A DNA stretch of 64,000 bases, taken from the NCBI RefSeq assembly GCF_000949475.1, contig NZ_JRHC01000001.1:558001-622000 (forward strand). The letters are read 5' to 3'. The notes beneath the pieces are model-generated. The model was not told the origin of the DNA. It saw only the letters and a program-made list of their open reading frames with translations, and searched no databases. Origin of the DNA: Draconibacterium sediminis. Its GTDB lineage: Bacteria > Bacteroidota > Bacteroidia > Bacteroidales > Prolixibacteraceae. Positions 28,103-32,243 of the stretch are shown piece after piece. Within the stretch, counting starts at the first letter, position 1. Each line of letters opens with the position of its first letter. The translations under genes were made by a program, and so were the position numbers.

Positions 28103-28216
28103 CATACGATTTCAGAAAAATTATGAAACGAGCAGAGAACTACATGGAATTAATGGAAGCCATTAAGCAGCGAGTTACATATGATACCGCTGAAAACGAA
28201 CAATTTTAATCATATG
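28103..28216 (+). promoter_or_regulatory. Structured leader of cysS with start-codon hairpin
   Basis: The blocks TTTCAG, ATGAAACGAGCA, GCGAGTTACATA-GATACC and TTTTAATC-TATGAATC recur in the leader of the gene at 30779. CATATGAT (28178-28185) pairs with ATCATATG (28209-28216), an 8-bp stem whose 3' arm contains the cysS ATG (28214-28216); the loop is 23 nt. In the other leader the stem is CATACGAT/ATCGTATG, so one base pair covaries. An RNA element that hides the start codon is inferred. No known class was matched. Confidence 0.55.
28123..28209 (+). CDS. Possible 28-residue leader ORF upstream of cysS
   Basis: It starts at ATG 28123 and ends with TAA at 28207-28209, four bases before the cysS ATG and in a different frame. 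The peptide begins [16 protein letters not shown] and contains RVTYDT near its end. In the related leader at 30690 the equivalent ATGAAACGAGCA frame stops after ten codons, so the nucleotide sequence rather than the peptide seems to be conserved. It may be translated and coupled to cysS, but could equally be incidental. It has no cysteine codons, which argues against classic cysteine attenuation. Confidence 0.35.
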
Positions 28217-29686
28217 AATCAACTATACATTTATAATACGCTGAGCCGAAAAAAGGTAGCGTTTAAGCCACTTGTTGAAGGTCGTGTTGGTTTGTACGTA
28301 TGCGGGCCAACAGTTTACAGCAACTCGCACCTTGGGCACGCCCGCCCGTTTATTACTTTCGATTTGTTGTACCGATACCTTACTTTTCTCGGAAACAAAG
28401 TTCGTTACGTGCGCAACATTACCGATGTTGGTCACCTTGAAGATGAGGTGGAAGGTGTTGGCGAAGACCGTATTGCCAAAAAAGCGCGTTTGGAGCAGCT
28501 GGAGCCAATGGAAGTGGTTCAGAAATACATGAACACTTTTCATCGGAATATGGACGATCTGAACGTTACACGTCCGAGCATTGAGCCACGTGCGTCGGGT
28601 CATATCATTGAGCAAATTCAGGTGATTGAGGGTATTCTGAAAAACGGGTATGCCTACGAAGCCAATGGCTCGGTTTATTTCGATGTAGATAAATACAACA
28701 ACGATTACAAGTACGGAAAACTTTCCGGCCGTAATCTGGATGACATAAAAACCAACACCCGCAAACTTGACGGGCAGGATGAAAAGAAAAACTCTTTTGA
28801 TTTTGCCTTGTGGAAAAAAGCGGCACCCGAGCACATTATGCGCTGGCCTTCGCCATGGAGCGATGGTTTCCCGGGATGGCACCTCGAATGTTCGGCAATG
28901 AGCACAAAATATTTGGGCGAACAGTTTGATATTCACGGTGGCGGAATGGATTTGACATTCCCTCACCACGAATGTGAGATTGCACAAAATACAGCTTGCC
29001 GCGGGCAGGAATCGGTGCGTTACTGGATGCACAATAACATGATCACCATTAACGGGCAGAAAATGGCGCGCTCGCTGGGTAACTTTATTACTTTGGATGA
29101 GTTGTTTACCGGTACGCACGAAATTCTGGAGCAGTCTTATTCGCCAATGACCATCCGCTTCTTCATTTTGCAGGCGCATTATCGCAGCACCATCGATTTC
29201 TCAAATGAAGCGTTACAGGCCTCAGAAAAAGGTTTGGAGCGTTTGATGGCTGCTATGAAGACCCTTGGCGAATTAACTTCTGCTGATACTTCTACAGTTG
29301 ATGTAGCACCATTGAAGGAGAAATGTTTCGCTGCCTTAAGTGACGATTTAAACAGCCCGATTGCTATTGCGCATCTTTTTGACGGGGTAAAAATGATCAA
29401 CTCGATTAAAGCCGGTACGGAGAAAATTTCTGCAGCTGATCTTGAAGATCTGAAAGCCTTTTACAATGCAGTGGTTTTCGATATTCTTGGTTTAAAAGAA
29501 GAAGGTGAAACAGGAAGCGGAAACAACGAAGTATTGGGTGGTGCTGTTGAATTGCTCATAAACCTGCGAAAGGATGCAAAAGCCAATAAAGATTGGGGAA
29601 CTGCCGATAAAATTCGCGACGAATTAAATGCCATTGGCATTGAGTTAAAAGACACCAAAGATGGTGTAGAGTGGAGTGTAAAATAA
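28214..29686 (+). CDS. cysS: Cysteinyl-tRNA synthetase
   Basis: This 490-residue class Ia synthetase charges tRNA-Cys. The start is the ATG at 28214 ([20 protein letters not shown]); an in-frame ATG at 28181 would add eleven residues but lies inside the leader hairpin. The zinc ligand and HIGH regions are in [21 protein letters not shown], the second zinc residues in GWHLECSAM and [10 protein letters not shown], and the KMSKS loop is KMARSLGNF. Length and order are normal for the family. Expression may be controlled by the upstream hairpin that sequesters its start codon. Confidence 0.96.
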
Positions 29687-29778
29687 TTGTAGAATGATGA
29701 ATGTGGATTAACGATTGATAAAGGAAGATCTGAAGTCAAAAATCGTTAATCGAAATTCGCAAATCAAAATATAAAGCT

Positions 29779-30390
29779 ATGTTTTCAGGAATAGTTGAAG
29801 AATACGGAACTGTAGTTGCCGTTGAAAAAGAGCAGGAGAATGTGCATTTTACCTTAACCTGTTCGTTTGCCGACGAGCTGAAAGTTGACCAGAGTTTATC
29901 GCACAACGGCGTTTGTTTAACCGTTGTTTGGGTGGATAAAGCTGAAAAGAAATACAAAGTTACTGCGATTAAAGAAACGCTGCTTAAGTCGAATCTTGGC
30001 TTGCTGGAAGTAGGGTCGAAAGTGAATCTGGAACGCAGTATGATGATGAATGGCCGATTGGATGGGCACATTGTTCAGGGGCACGTTGACCAGACTGCAA
30101 AGTGTGTAAAAATTGAAGAGGCCGACGGAAGCTGGTATTACACTTTTGAATACGAGTTTGATCTGGATAAAGCTAAACAAGGTTATATGACCGTTGAAAA
30201 AGGCTCGGTAACAGTTAATGGTGTCAGTCTTACCGTGGTAAACTCAAAAGATAATTCTTTCCAGGTGGCTATTATTCCTTTCACGCAGGAAGTTACCAAT
30301 TTCCACACTTTTGAAGTGGGATCGGTAATTAACCTTGAGTTTGACATTATTGGAAAATACCTGAGTAAATTGAATTCGTACAGCAAATAG
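29779..30390 (+). CDS. ribE: Riboflavin synthase alpha subunit
   Basis: This 203-residue enzyme converts two 6,7-dimethyl-8-ribityllumazine molecules to riboflavin. It has the expected two homologous barrel halves: MFSGIVEEYGTV with SHNGVCLTV in the first and GYMTVEKGSVTVNGVSLTV in the second. The GHIVQGHVDQ motif between the halves is diagnostic. No FMN riboswitch is visible in the 90 bases upstream. A terminator follows 23 bases after the stop, so it is probably monocistronic or coupled only to cysS. Confidence 0.96.
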   Translation: MFSGIVEEYGTVVAVEKEQENVHFTLTCSFADELKVDQSLSHNGVCLTVVWVDKAEKKYKVTAIKETLLKSNLGLLEVGSKVNLERSMMMNGRLDGHIVQGHVDQTAKCVKIEEADGSWYYTFEYEFDLDKAKQGYMTVEKGSVTVNGVSLTVVNSKDNSFQVAIIPFTQEVTNFHTFEVGSVINLEFDIIGKYLSKLNSYSK

Positions 30391-30413
30391 AAAAACCACA
30401 TAGTGTTTTTAAT

Positions 30414-30439
30414 AGGGTCCGTTTTGCGGGCCTTTTTTT
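30414..30439 (+). terminator. Probable terminator of ribE
   Basis: AGG(G)TCCG pairs with CGGGCCT around TTTTG, with one bulge and a G-U pair, then seven T follow. Moderate strength. Confidence 0.65.
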
Positions 30440-30471
30440 GTTTCAATTTTCTTCGCCTCATAAAGAAAAGA

Positions 30472-30574
30472 TTTCACGCAGAGAACGCTAAGAATATCGC
30501 AAAGTATACAAAGTCGTGTTTAATACTTATATCATCTTTGCGAACTTTGCACTTCTTCATTTCTTTGCGTGAAA
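30472..30574. repeat. Palindromic intergenic element (CACGCA...TGCGTG type)
   Basis: The outer arms TTTCACGCA (30472-30480) and TGCGTGAAA (30566-30574) enclose inner arms CGCAAAGT and ACTTTGC. Elements with CGCAAAG words inside a long dyad are common between Bacteroidota genes. It may be a MITE-like remnant. No ORF. Confidence 0.65.
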
Positions 30575-30603
30575 AGTTATATATAACCTTCCACTTCTGT
30601 TGG

Positions 30604-30633
30604 TTGTTCACGGAAATCACGTTTGTATTTTTG
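30604..30633 (+). promoter_or_regulatory. Candidate promoter of the folM-folX-folK-like operon
   Basis: TATTTTTG (30626-30633) fits the -7 element and a TTG at 30604-30606 stands 19 nt upstream in the -33 place. GTTCAC and GTGAAC flank the region as an inverted repeat. The predicted leader is about 140 nt. Confidence 0.45.
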
Positions 30634-30682
30634 TGAACATAAGTCTGGCCATCCTGTTCTTATTAGAAAAAATAACTAACTT

Positions 30683-30781
30683 TTCAGAATGAAACGAGCA
30701 CGTAAACATTCTCCTCTGTGATAATGATTAGATGTGCGAGTTACATACGATACCTTAAAAATAAACAGTTTTAATCGTATG
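30683..30781 (+). promoter_or_regulatory. Structured leader of the folM-like gene with start-codon hairpin
   Basis: It shares TTTCAG, ATGAAACGAGCA, GCGAGTTACATA-GATACC and TTTTAATC-TATGAATC with the cysS leader. CATACGAT (30744-30751) pairs with ATCGTATG (30774-30781), which contains the start codon ATG 30779-30781; the loop is 22 nt. Relative to cysS the fifth base pair is C-G instead of T-A, a compensatory change. Confidence 0.55.
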
Positions 30782-31507
30782 AATCGAACAGCATTAATAA
30801 CCGGAGCATCAAAACGTATCGGCCGATCGTTAACAGAACATCTGGCCGAAAAAGGCTGGAATGTTGTGCTGCACTACAATTCTTCGGCAAAAGGAGCCAA
30901 TGAGCTGGTTGAAGAACTTGAGAAAAAATATCCAGATCAGGAATTCAGGGCAGTACAAGCCAACCTTGCGGAAACAGATAAGGTAGTGGCATTGATACCC
31001 AAACTGGCTGCCCGAAACATCAAAGTTGATTTGTTGGTAAATAATGCTTCTGTATTCGATCGTGGCTACCTGAAAGGCACCTCAGTTGAGCTTTTTGATT
31101 CACAGCTGGATGTCAACCTAAAAGCTCCGTTTTTTCTTATCCGTGACTTTGCCAATTATTTCAAATCAGGCAACATCATTAATTTTGTAGATACGCGAAT
31201 AACCTCAAATGCTTCAAACTTTGCGGCTTATTCCATCTCGAAAAAAGCACTTTGGGAACTCACAAAAATGGCGGCCTTGGAATTTGCTCCCGATATCAGG
31301 ATAAATGCTATTGCACCCGGTGTTACCTTGCCTCCTGAAGACGAGGATGAGGATTACCTGGAAAAGCTGGCGCAGGGTATTCCGATGAAAAAACCGGGAG
31401 GAGTGGAGCCGATTTTGAAAAGTTTGGATTATATTTTGGAAAATGATCATCTCACCGGGCAATTGCTGTTTGCCGACGGCGGAGAAAACCTTGGAAAAAA
31501 CCTTTAA
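30779..31507 (+). CDS. folM: Pteridine reductase / FolM-like short-chain dehydrogenase
   Basis: This 242-residue SDR probably reduces dihydromonapterin or dihydrofolate with NADPH. The start is the ATG at 30779 (MNRTALITGASKRIGRSL); a GTG at 30734 in frame would add 15 residues and lies in the leader. The nucleotide motif TGxxxRIG (residues 8-15) is the form found in PTR1 and FolM instead of the usual TGxxxGIG. NNASVFDRG and the catalytic YSISK follow, then INAIAPGV. It is directly followed by a FolX-like and a FolK-like gene, which supports a pterin role. The precise substrate is inferred from context. Confidence 0.8.
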   Translation: MNRTALITGASKRIGRSLTEHLAEKGWNVVLHYNSSAKGANELVEELEKKYPDQEFRAVQANLAETDKVVALIPKLAARNIKVDLLVNNASVFDRGYLKGTSVELFDSQLDVNLKAPFFLIRDFANYFKSGNIINFVDTRITSNASNFAAYSISKKALWELTKMAALEFAPDIRINAIAPGVTLPPEDEDEDYLEKLAQGIPMKKPGGVEPILKSLDYILENDHLTGQLLFADGGENLGKNL

Positions 31508-31509
31508 AT

Positions 31510-31863
31510 ATGGCTAAAATACGCGTAAAAGATTTGCTAATCAGAACCTACATCGGATTTAATCCCGATGAATTGGTGAATAAACAGGATGTAGTGATCA
31601 ACCTTGAGATTGAAACTGATATTCCTGAATCGGCCCTCGAATCAGACGAGCCCGAAGACATTTTCAACTATAAAGTGATCACCAAAAAAATAATTACATT
31701 GGTTCAGGAGGGGCGCTTTAAATTACTGGAAGTGCTCACCAAACGTATTCTCGACACGATAATGGAGGATGAAAAAGTCAAGTGGGCTCGTGTTGAAGTG
31801 GATAAGCCACATGCTTTGCGTTTTGCTGAATCGGTATCGATGGAAATGGAGGCCAGTCGATGA
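31510..31863 (+). CDS. folX: Dihydroneopterin aldolase/epimerase-family protein, FolX-like
   Basis: This 117-residue protein belongs to the FolB/FolX family. It resembles FolX (dihydroneopterin-triphosphate 2'-epimerase) more than FolB: IRVKDLLIRTYIGFNPDEL, NKQDVVINLEI, FNYKVITKKIITLVQEGRFKLLE and VEVDKPHALRFAESVSM all follow the FolX pattern as I recall it. With a FolM-like reductase upstream (2-base gap) and a FolK-like gene overlapping by 4 bases, the unit could make tetrahydromonapterin. An aldolase (FolB) function cannot be excluded without alignment. Confidence 0.8.
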   Translation: MAKIRVKDLLIRTYIGFNPDELVNKQDVVINLEIETDIPESALESDEPEDIFNYKVITKKIITLVQEGRFKLLEVLTKRILDTIMEDEKVKWARVEVDKPHALRFAESVSMEMEASR

Positions 31864-32243
31864 ACATTGTAATTATCGGCATAGGCTCAAACATAAACCC
31901 AGATGAGAATATTGCCAAAATGATTGAAATCCTGAATGAGGAGGTTACGGTGCTTGAAGTTTCTTCAATGATAAAAACCAAACCGATTGGAATTAAGTAC
32001 CAGGCCGATTTTACTAACGGAGCGGTAAAGGTTTGCACACGTTTGACTGAGCCTGAACTGAAAAAGTTACTTAAACAAATTGAAGACCGGATGGGGCGCG
32101 ACCGGACGGGGCCAAAATTCGGACCACGTTGTATCGATCTGGATATTGCCGTATGGAACGGCGAGGTAGTTGATGAAGATTATTACACGCGCGACTTTCT
32201 GAGAAATAGTGTGGAGGAGCTGGGTGGAGTAGCAAAAAAGTAA
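31860..32243 (+). CDS. Short FolK-like (HPPK) protein
   Basis: This 127-residue member of the 6-hydroxymethyl-dihydropterin pyrophosphokinase family has GIGSNINPDENI at the N-terminus, DFTNGAVKVCT, a shortened middle, and the signature GPRCIDLDIAVWNGEVV (consensus GPRxIDLDLL). It lacks about 30 residues of the usual 155-160 and ends soon after the signature, so its catalytic competence is uncertain. Its ATG overlaps the FolX stop (ATGA, 31860-31863), so translation is coupled. It could be an accessory or altered HPPK acting on monapterin-type pterins. Confidence 0.75.
   Translation: MNIVIIGIGSNINPDENIAKMIEILNEEVTVLEVSSMIKTKPIGIKYQADFTNGAVKVCTRLTEPELKKLLKQIEDRMGRDRTGPKFGPRCIDLDIAVWNGEVVDEDYYTRDFLRNSVEELGGVAKK

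Follow-up and report, generated by a model that had tools for sequence, protein, structure and literature searches.

Two similar gene leaders in Draconibacterium sediminis are very probably copies of a small mobile repeat inserting at ATGA(A)

We analysed a stretch of 64,000 nucleotides of the Draconibacterium sediminis genome (contig NZ_JRHC01000001.1, positions 558,001 to 622,000; hereafter the window), in which the cysteinyl-tRNA synthetase gene, cysS, and a short-chain dehydrogenase (SDR) gene heading a folate operon are preceded by look-alike leaders. A sequence-only reading had taken them for a cis-regulatory RNA joining cysteine charging and pterin metabolism. Our results paint a different picture. 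Very probably, the two leaders represent a single kind of small non-autonomous mobile element that inserts at ATGA(A), as indicated by dispersed copies, empty sites, an exact insertion boundary, a core at both ends, tandem copies sharing a core, a burst of copies and a covarying hairpin. The element belongs to a small non-autonomous repeat family, of which no description was found in the literature searched.

The two leaders themselves had been described accurately. All four stem arms lie at the positions claimed, three blocks are common to both leaders and occur in the same order, and the start ATG is inside each 3' arm. In the SDR leader the RVTYDT frame is in phase with the gene, within an open reading frame (ORF) at 30734-31507; in the cysS leader it is out of phase, the upstream ORF beginning at 28123 reaching its stop at 28209. 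ATGAAACGAGCA, common to both leaders, is the left boundary of the element, and lies at the former start codons of both genes. The features, all on the + strand of the window, are as follows.

28123..28219, +, element copy 1, at the cysS start codon (covariance-model match, E 4.8e-12; orthologous site empty in six same-genus genomes)
28123..28126, +, left core ATGA of copy 1, the former cysS start (empty sites read ...ATGAGTCAAC here)
28123 to TAA 28207-28209, +, 28-codon upstream ORF from the former cysS start (sequence)
28127..28176, +, hairpin 1 of copy 1, AAC-GA-GC (28127-28133) / GC-GA-GTT (28170-28176), with tandem G.A mismatches and a variable middle (alignment)
28178..28216, +, hairpin 2 of copy 1, CATATGAT (28178-28185) / ATCATATG (28209-28216), holding the present start codon (sequence, fold, covariation)
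28214..28218, +, right core ATGAA of copy 1, the present cysS start at 28214 (sequence, empty-site comparison)
28214..29686, +, cysS, cysteinyl-tRNA synthetase, host gene of copy 1 (PF01406, E 8.7e-107)
30689..30784, +, element copy 2, at the SDR gene start codon (covariance-model match, E 8.7e-12; start without the element in 12 of 15 relatives, the 12 readable)
30689..30692, +, left core ATGA of copy 2, the former SDR start (empty sites read ...cttttcagaATGAAACGAACAG or ATGATTCGAACAG)
30689 to TGA 30719-30721, +, 10-codon upstream ORF from the former SDR start (sequence)
30693..30742, +, hairpin 1 of copy 2, AAC-GA-GC (30693-30699) / GC-GA-GTT (30736-30742) (alignment, fold)
30744..30781, +, hairpin 2 of copy 2, CATACGAT (30744-30751) / ATCGTATG (30774-30781), holding the present start codon (sequence, fold, covariation)
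30779..30783, +, right core ATGAA of copy 2, the present SDR start at 30779 (sequence, empty-site comparison)
30779..32243, +, host genes of copy 2: short-chain dehydrogenase 30779-31507 (PF00106/PF13561), FolB 31510-31863 (PF02152) and HPPK/FolK 31860-32243 (PF01288)

Dispersed copies and empty sites

The similarity of the two leaders is beyond chance, and it is not confined to them. With the cysS leader as query, the SDR leader was retrieved at E = 6e-8, together with six other places of the same genome at E<=6e-5. A covariance model (R1), built from an alignment of 17 own-genome copies (A1), gave 53 own-genome matches at E<=1 and 46 at E<=0.01. R1 was run on 41 genomes, 25 from the same genus (own included) and 16 from the same order, and matched 26 of them. 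One same-genus genome was without a match, the other 24 (own among them) having between 3 and 83 copies; in the same-order set two genomes matched, one with 12 copies and one with 19. The covariance-model search suggested by the sequence-only reading returned many further copies before start codons, with compensated changes in the stem. Copies precede unrelated genes: diacylglycerol kinase-, SusD-, HlyD-, TolC-, HemN-, threonine synthase-, TrkA- and saccharopine dehydrogenase-like genes, among others, the names coming from a reading of the proteins and not from a family search.

Across Bacteroidota the distribution is patchy. A pattern scan of named genomes matched at least 120 stretches, and among the matches listed are Prolixibacteraceae, Marinilabiliaceae, Dysgonamonadaceae, Tannerellaceae, Odoribacter, Paludibacter and Bacterium BMS3Abin03. 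In an even sample of the phylum, 11 of 296 genomes matched, own included, with at least 12 matches in each of two and at least one in most others; as 13 candidates were scored per genome, these copy numbers are lower bounds. The architecture was the same in eight of the nine phylum-sample loci inspected, and the ninth (L499), near a contig end, was unreadable. Element copies are also present on three contigs of a viral collection (L215, L216, L217). In Thermophagus xiamenensis, three tandem copies (L134:2799-3109) lie between two halves of an apparent transposase gene, presumably of the ISL3 type.

Element-free orthologues exist for all eight genes tested, and the break falls exactly at the start codon. 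For cysS, the own genome, G009 and G024 have the element at an identical position, where G002, G004, G005, G007, G012 and G013 are empty and read ATGAGTCAAC. The cysS of G021 has a copy of a different subfamily at its start, and the remaining cysS loci have no such element within 150 bases upstream (30 loci, three not judgeable). The SDR start is filled in the own genome only and empty in 12 of the 15 relatives fetched, the other three (L287-L289) being unreadable. HemN is filled in the own genome and empty in 7/7 relatives, and its left flank (about 40 nt) is identical between the own site and the empty site of G009. The other five genes show filled and empty sites as well: the branching-enzyme-like gene (own, G005 and G012 filled, G007 with a hybrid copy; four empty), threonine synthase (own, G012 and G007 filled; five empty), the saccharopine-dehydrogenase-like gene (own, G009 and G004 filled; five empty), the TrkA-like gene (own and six relatives filled or decaying; G002 empty) and diacylglycerol kinase (own and G009 filled; three empty). 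Adding the element, bounded by ATGAAA on either side, to the start of an empty relative reproduces the filled start in the case of HemN, threonine synthase, saccharopine dehydrogenase, TrkA and the kinase. The branching-enzyme gene has ATGAAG in the own copy and ATGAAA in the copies of G005 and G012, and some of the empty threonine synthase starts read ATGAGA or ATGCAA.

Tandem copies and a burst of near-identical copies point in the same direction. Overlaps of 6 nt between neighbouring matches recur, and all five tandem pairs parsed start exactly at the 3' ATG of the preceding copy, one ATGAAA being shared. In G016, 18 copies are 91-100% identical, two of them shortened. Besides, middles have been swapped en bloc between otherwise conserved ends in L219 (cysS, G024) and L334 (branching-enzyme gene, G007), the latter resembling a hybrid of two subfamilies fused mid-element. 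Between the cysS copies of G024 and the own genome, 20 of 36 positions are identical in the middle and 44 of 44 in the right part, which looks like replacement rather than drift.

Could one leader simply have been copied beside the other? The sequence-only reading had named a recent local duplication without conserved stems as the outcome that would overturn its proposal, and the two copies are indeed just 2.6 kb apart. However, their middles and stem letters differ, dozens of copies are dispersed, and the cysS copy is common to G009 and G024, whose SDR starts are empty. This pattern of empty sites refutes a local duplication, which we regard as wholly improbable.

Two hairpins and their covariation

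The element measures about 85-120 bp and has two hairpins, with the core ATGA(A) on either side. From 5' to 3' it reads ATGA; hairpin 1, with AAC-GA-GC, a variable middle, GC-GA-GTT and tandem G.A mismatches; a single N; hairpin 2, CATNNNAT...ATNNNATG; and AA(A). In hairpin 1, AAC and GTT form standard pairs in 17/17 copies of A1; the GA is invariant in the 5' arm, and in the 3' arm the G is invariant and the A present in at least 90%. The AAC/GTT helix is absent from the single-sequence fold of the cysS copy and present in the folds of copies L012 and L015. A lineage variant is seen in the tandem copies of L498 (genome G234), where one base is added on each side of hairpin 1 (ATGAAATCGAGC...GCGAGATTCCAT), fitting a paired helix.

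Hairpin 2 has the general form CATNN...NNATG, and its 3' arm holds the start codon. The claim that this hairpin varies in a compensating manner holds for own copies and for those of other genomes. In the 17 own-genome copies, 91.9% of the cells are paired versus 83.5% in shuffles, and there are 18 double-sided changes versus 9.1 when shuffled, the number of pair types not being above the shuffled level. Pairs 4 to 6 have both sides changed in 3 to 8 of the 17 sequences. A subgroup within A1 has CATC-GA-AT/AT-GA-GATG instead, and was scored there as unpaired at two positions. Over 97 matches aligned by the covariance model, 110 double-sided changed cells compare with 35 after shuffling; pair types are again not raised, and such an alignment leans to its model. 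An alignment-free count was made in other genomes, where a 3' ATG was assigned to 131 of 135 pattern matches; four of the 131 had no ATGAA within range and were dropped. In the 127 copies so parsed, Watson-Crick pairs make up 91% at stem position 4 and 89% at position 5, versus 30% and 38% with partners shuffled; position 6 reaches 80% versus 70%, and position 7, with 28%, does not exceed its shuffled value. The full 8-bp stem is therefore a trait of Draconibacterium-type copies, a stem of 5-6 bp being the rule elsewhere.

Structure prediction gave a less uniform result. Single-sequence folds of nine copies were mixed: in two, no shuffle folded equally well, and for L013, 66 of 200 shuffles did. 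On A1, RNAalifold picks a long invariant helix, ATG.AAC..GC/GC..GTT.CAT, with zero double-sided changes; the internal CAT is also able to pair with the left ATG. The two-hairpin structure, which was defined after the RNAalifold run, carries the covariation and competes with that helix for the CAT.

A start codon within a covarying stem is what one would expect of a conserved, riboswitch-like translational RNA with cysS and the folate operon in its regulon. Moreover, the start is predicted to be closed in complete-stem copies and more open in empty orthologues. Yet copies stand at unrelated genes, and the same genes lack the element in sister species, so that it is not conserved with any one functional class of genes. 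Tandem arrays and a burst are likewise foreign to a regulon, and the start is predicted open in four of eight folded copies. The covariation does not decide for the regulatory reading, either. The NN positions pair in 69 of 80 copies with a downstream gene and in 35 of 44 without one (p 0.44; the 127 parsed copies minus three at contig ends), and this near-equal pairing means that covariation is no proof of selection for control of a downstream gene. NN pairing serves the element first, and not a cysS/folate regulon. Rfam 15 gave no match at its gathering thresholds in the window and only a tRNA in 10 other loci; at E<=10, three chance-level matches were obtained in eight loci, none on the element. 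This agrees with the earlier remark that no known riboswitch class was recognisable, and it speaks against a regulatory RNA on the copies scanned. A cysteine/pterin riboswitch is ruled out by the unrelated genes and the empty sites, the proposed link between cysteine charging and pterin metabolism is not supported, and a conserved cis-regulatory RNA of any such kind is very unlikely.

Start codons and the host genes

In the older sets of copies (own genome, G005 and G007), the mobile element is mostly found exactly at gene starts, in the direction of the gene. Taking an ORF of at least 60 codons as proxy for a gene start, the 3' ATG opens one in 26 of the 30 best own copies, four having none, and in 24 of the 30 best in G005/G007 (best by score; full match counts 46 in the own genome, 59 in G005 and 83 in G007). 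Both counts are above the null, in which 73 of 160 non-coding ATGAAA and 146 of 373 ATGAA (464 kb) fall in start zones, i.e. 39-46%; this null uses crude ORF calls, and its start zones take in every in-frame ATG of the first 30 codons. As the sets of the own genome, G005 and G007 may share insertions, the counts are not independent, and the p-values are indicative only.

Insertion would proceed as follows. With its right end the element re-creates ATGAA and supplies an A/T-rich initiation region (AAACAATTTTAATNNNATGAA), the former start codon would then head a short upstream ORF (MKRA...), and the gene would gain a new start, often within the hairpin. A start codon is present at the left end in 57 of the 60 copies, the three exceptions all being own copies. 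Among these 57, the upstream ORF terminates over 15 nt ahead of the new start in 37 and within -15 to +60 in 17; in three it reads through into the gene. Conservation of the upstream peptide was considered and rejected, as the codons after MKRA vary and the stops differ in place.

Where its stem is complete, hairpin 2 probably lowers access to the new start. In predicted folds, the probability of an unpaired start is 0.03 for cysS, 0.00 for SDR, 0.11 for HemN and 0.06 for diacylglycerol kinase, versus 0.17, 0.45, 0.48 and 0.80 in one empty orthologue each. Four of the eight folded copies, with G.A-type or imperfect stems, have a start predicted open (0.58-0.78). According to PMC3155529, Bacteroidetes lack Shine-Dalgarno signals, and structure over the Shine-Dalgarno position cut a reporter fivefold in Prevotella bryantii. 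This drop makes it plausible that insertion affects translation of the host gene.

Several observations weigh against the mobile element as just described. Of the 17 readable copies of the G016 burst (one of the 18 has no right end), 10 sit at gene starts, one of these running off its contig after 74 codons, and this share does not clearly exceed the null (p 0.20). At cysS and SDR, ATGA is followed by G or T in empty sites and by A in filled ones; the core may be four or five bases, with the right end carrying ATGAA, or a later substitution may have occurred. Between orthologous copies, identity is 96% in the left part, 90% in the right part, 92% in the upstream flank and 80% in the middle (23 pairs, the TrkA site contributing 15; the strict pattern used dropped L221 from the cysS group and all pairs of the ThrC group). 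The middle changes faster than the ends, and the ends could have a cis function. No ORF-bearing long form of the element was found in G016. Furthermore, no element match better than E 0.23 was obtained at 50 loci with hits to Y1 transposase genes (48 distinct places, part of all Y1 hits), and none better than E 1.3 at 10 integron-integrase-like loci. Finally, G007 has no significant replication-strand bias, 48 of 83 copies lying with the leading strand versus 67% of 277 sampled genes; the origin and terminus are rough estimates based on GC skew (20 samples, a few out of line).

A further reading is domestication, in which the element spread as a repeat and some start-codon copies were kept for tuning or switching host translation. 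The older sets are at starts in 50 of 60 copies versus 10 of 17 in the fresh G016 burst (Fisher p 0.047), the outer parts of orthologous copies are more alike than their middles, and lpxD-like genes in two genomes of a related genus both have a copy with the stem kept. On the other hand, the ends are no more conserved than the upstream flank, most of the compared pairs come from the TrkA site, where several copies decay, and retention at starts is equally expected of insertions that are merely tolerated. The possible sharing of insertions among the older sets also bears on the first comparison. We consider domestication possible, though not likely. It may be that insertion targets ATGA(A) generally and that copies at start codons were kept as harmless or useful. 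The two lpxD-like genes, named from a reading of the protein start (L494, L501), belong to a class-level relative genus, and in both the copy sits at the start site.

A bolder version would make the element the type of a hitherto undescribed mobile class specialised on start codons. An internal GTTNCAT guide would let it find ATGAA, the old start would become that of an upstream ORF, and in hosts across Bacteroidota selection would retain the portable translational hairpins at genes like cysS, trkA and lpxD. Such an element could pass through a rod-like circular single-stranded intermediate, CNNATGAAAC being paired with GTTNCATNNG, and an excised circle would show a …NNATGAAACGAGC… junction. 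We hold this version to be doubtful.

The mobile element in its plainer form has practical consequences. A large number of seeming leader RNAs and of displaced start codons across Bacteroidota would go back to one repeat, annotators may mistake the old start, now of an upstream ORF, for the gene start, and covarying start-codon hairpins can belong to mobile repeats instead of riboswitches. If retained copies do tune translation, they would constitute a natural, movable control part. The empty and filled natural pairs are ready-made, so that domestication of the repeat is directly testable.

Mobilisation and comparison with known systems

Mobilisation may occur in trans, by an enzyme not found at the loci searched. 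This enzyme might recognise the hairpins, and the internal GTTNCAT can pair with ATGA(A) at either end. A candidate is a Y1 (HUH) transposase, which would make the element similar to repetitive extragenic palindromes (REPs) or to IS200/IS605-type single-stranded DNA elements, with ATGA as the tetranucleotide beside a mismatch-bulged hairpin. According to PMC6006769 and PMC8266576, REPs have a tetranucleotide 5' to the hairpin foot and, in E. coli, a conserved mismatch bulge, and Bacteroidetes TnpA genes of subclass 2.6 are flanked by atypical structures. In our data, Y1 genes are present in 36 of the 41 genomes searched. Still, the 48 distinct Y1-hit places fetched, part of all Y1 hits, had no convincing element nearby, the count of Y1 genes is only weakly and not significantly correlated with element copy number (Spearman 0.30, p 0.14, 25 same-genus genomes), and G007 lacks the strand bias. 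In addition, the two weak-match Y1 genes inspected (L428, L439), with look-alike words nearby, have a different flanking palindrome, CCCCTCGTTTGTAACGAGGGG. This palindrome possibly corresponds to the atypical structures reported for subclass 2.6. Overall, we judge a Y1-moved, REP-like origin to be somewhat unlikely.

Other enzymes were looked for as well. No integron integrase exceeded the TIGR02249 cut-off in any of 13 genomes, and related recombinases below it were found in all 13. Among these are tyrosine recombinases resembling integron integrases (L502, L503, L507, L511). The best integrase-like matches lie in open frames, which in the 11 Draconibacterium genomes searched have 375-514 residues except for one of 603, and low-complexity, repeat-coded ORFs lie upstream of such genes at three of four loci viewed. 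The top clusters among 795 ORFs near the element (123 loci) were common families only.

Several known systems share part of this combination of features. Like the REP/RAYT (REP-associated tyrosine transposase, TnpA-REP) system, the element is non-autonomous and forms short, dispersed extragenic hairpins; these contain a mismatch bulge and, at the foot, a conserved tetranucleotide, as seen in the 17 aligned copies. It differs in having two hairpins, ATGA(A) on both sides, head-to-tail arrays with shared cores and a start-codon location, and copies did not flank a Y1 gene at the 48 distinct places, part of all Y1 hits.

With start-codon-sequestering leader RNAs the element shares the start codon within a covarying stem; it is unlike them in being spread by insertion at unrelated genes, with no evident ligand or regulon. 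Miniature inverted-repeat transposable elements (MITEs) and small IS200/IS605-derived elements (palindrome-associated transposable elements, PATEs) are small, dispersed and ORF-less, with a short fixed target, and all of this applies to the element. In contrast to them, its core is the start codon, which is restored, and no parent element was found. It has no terminal inverted repeats, the ends ATGAAACGAGC and NNATGAA (A1) not being inverted repeats as in DDE-type MITEs. HEARO elements may insert next to ATGA, too.

Integron attC sites are imperfect AAC...GTT hairpins with unpaired spacers and a variable tip, and hairpin 1 is built in the same way. However, the insertion boundary of the element lies outside the GTT box, and the integrase search described above gave nothing above the cut-off in 13/13 genomes. 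Rickettsia palindromic elements are another example of small repeats that colonise genes, inserting in frame inside the coding sequence. The element of Draconibacterium colonises genes too, but at their start codons, and with the mentioned 3/57 copies reading through into the gene.

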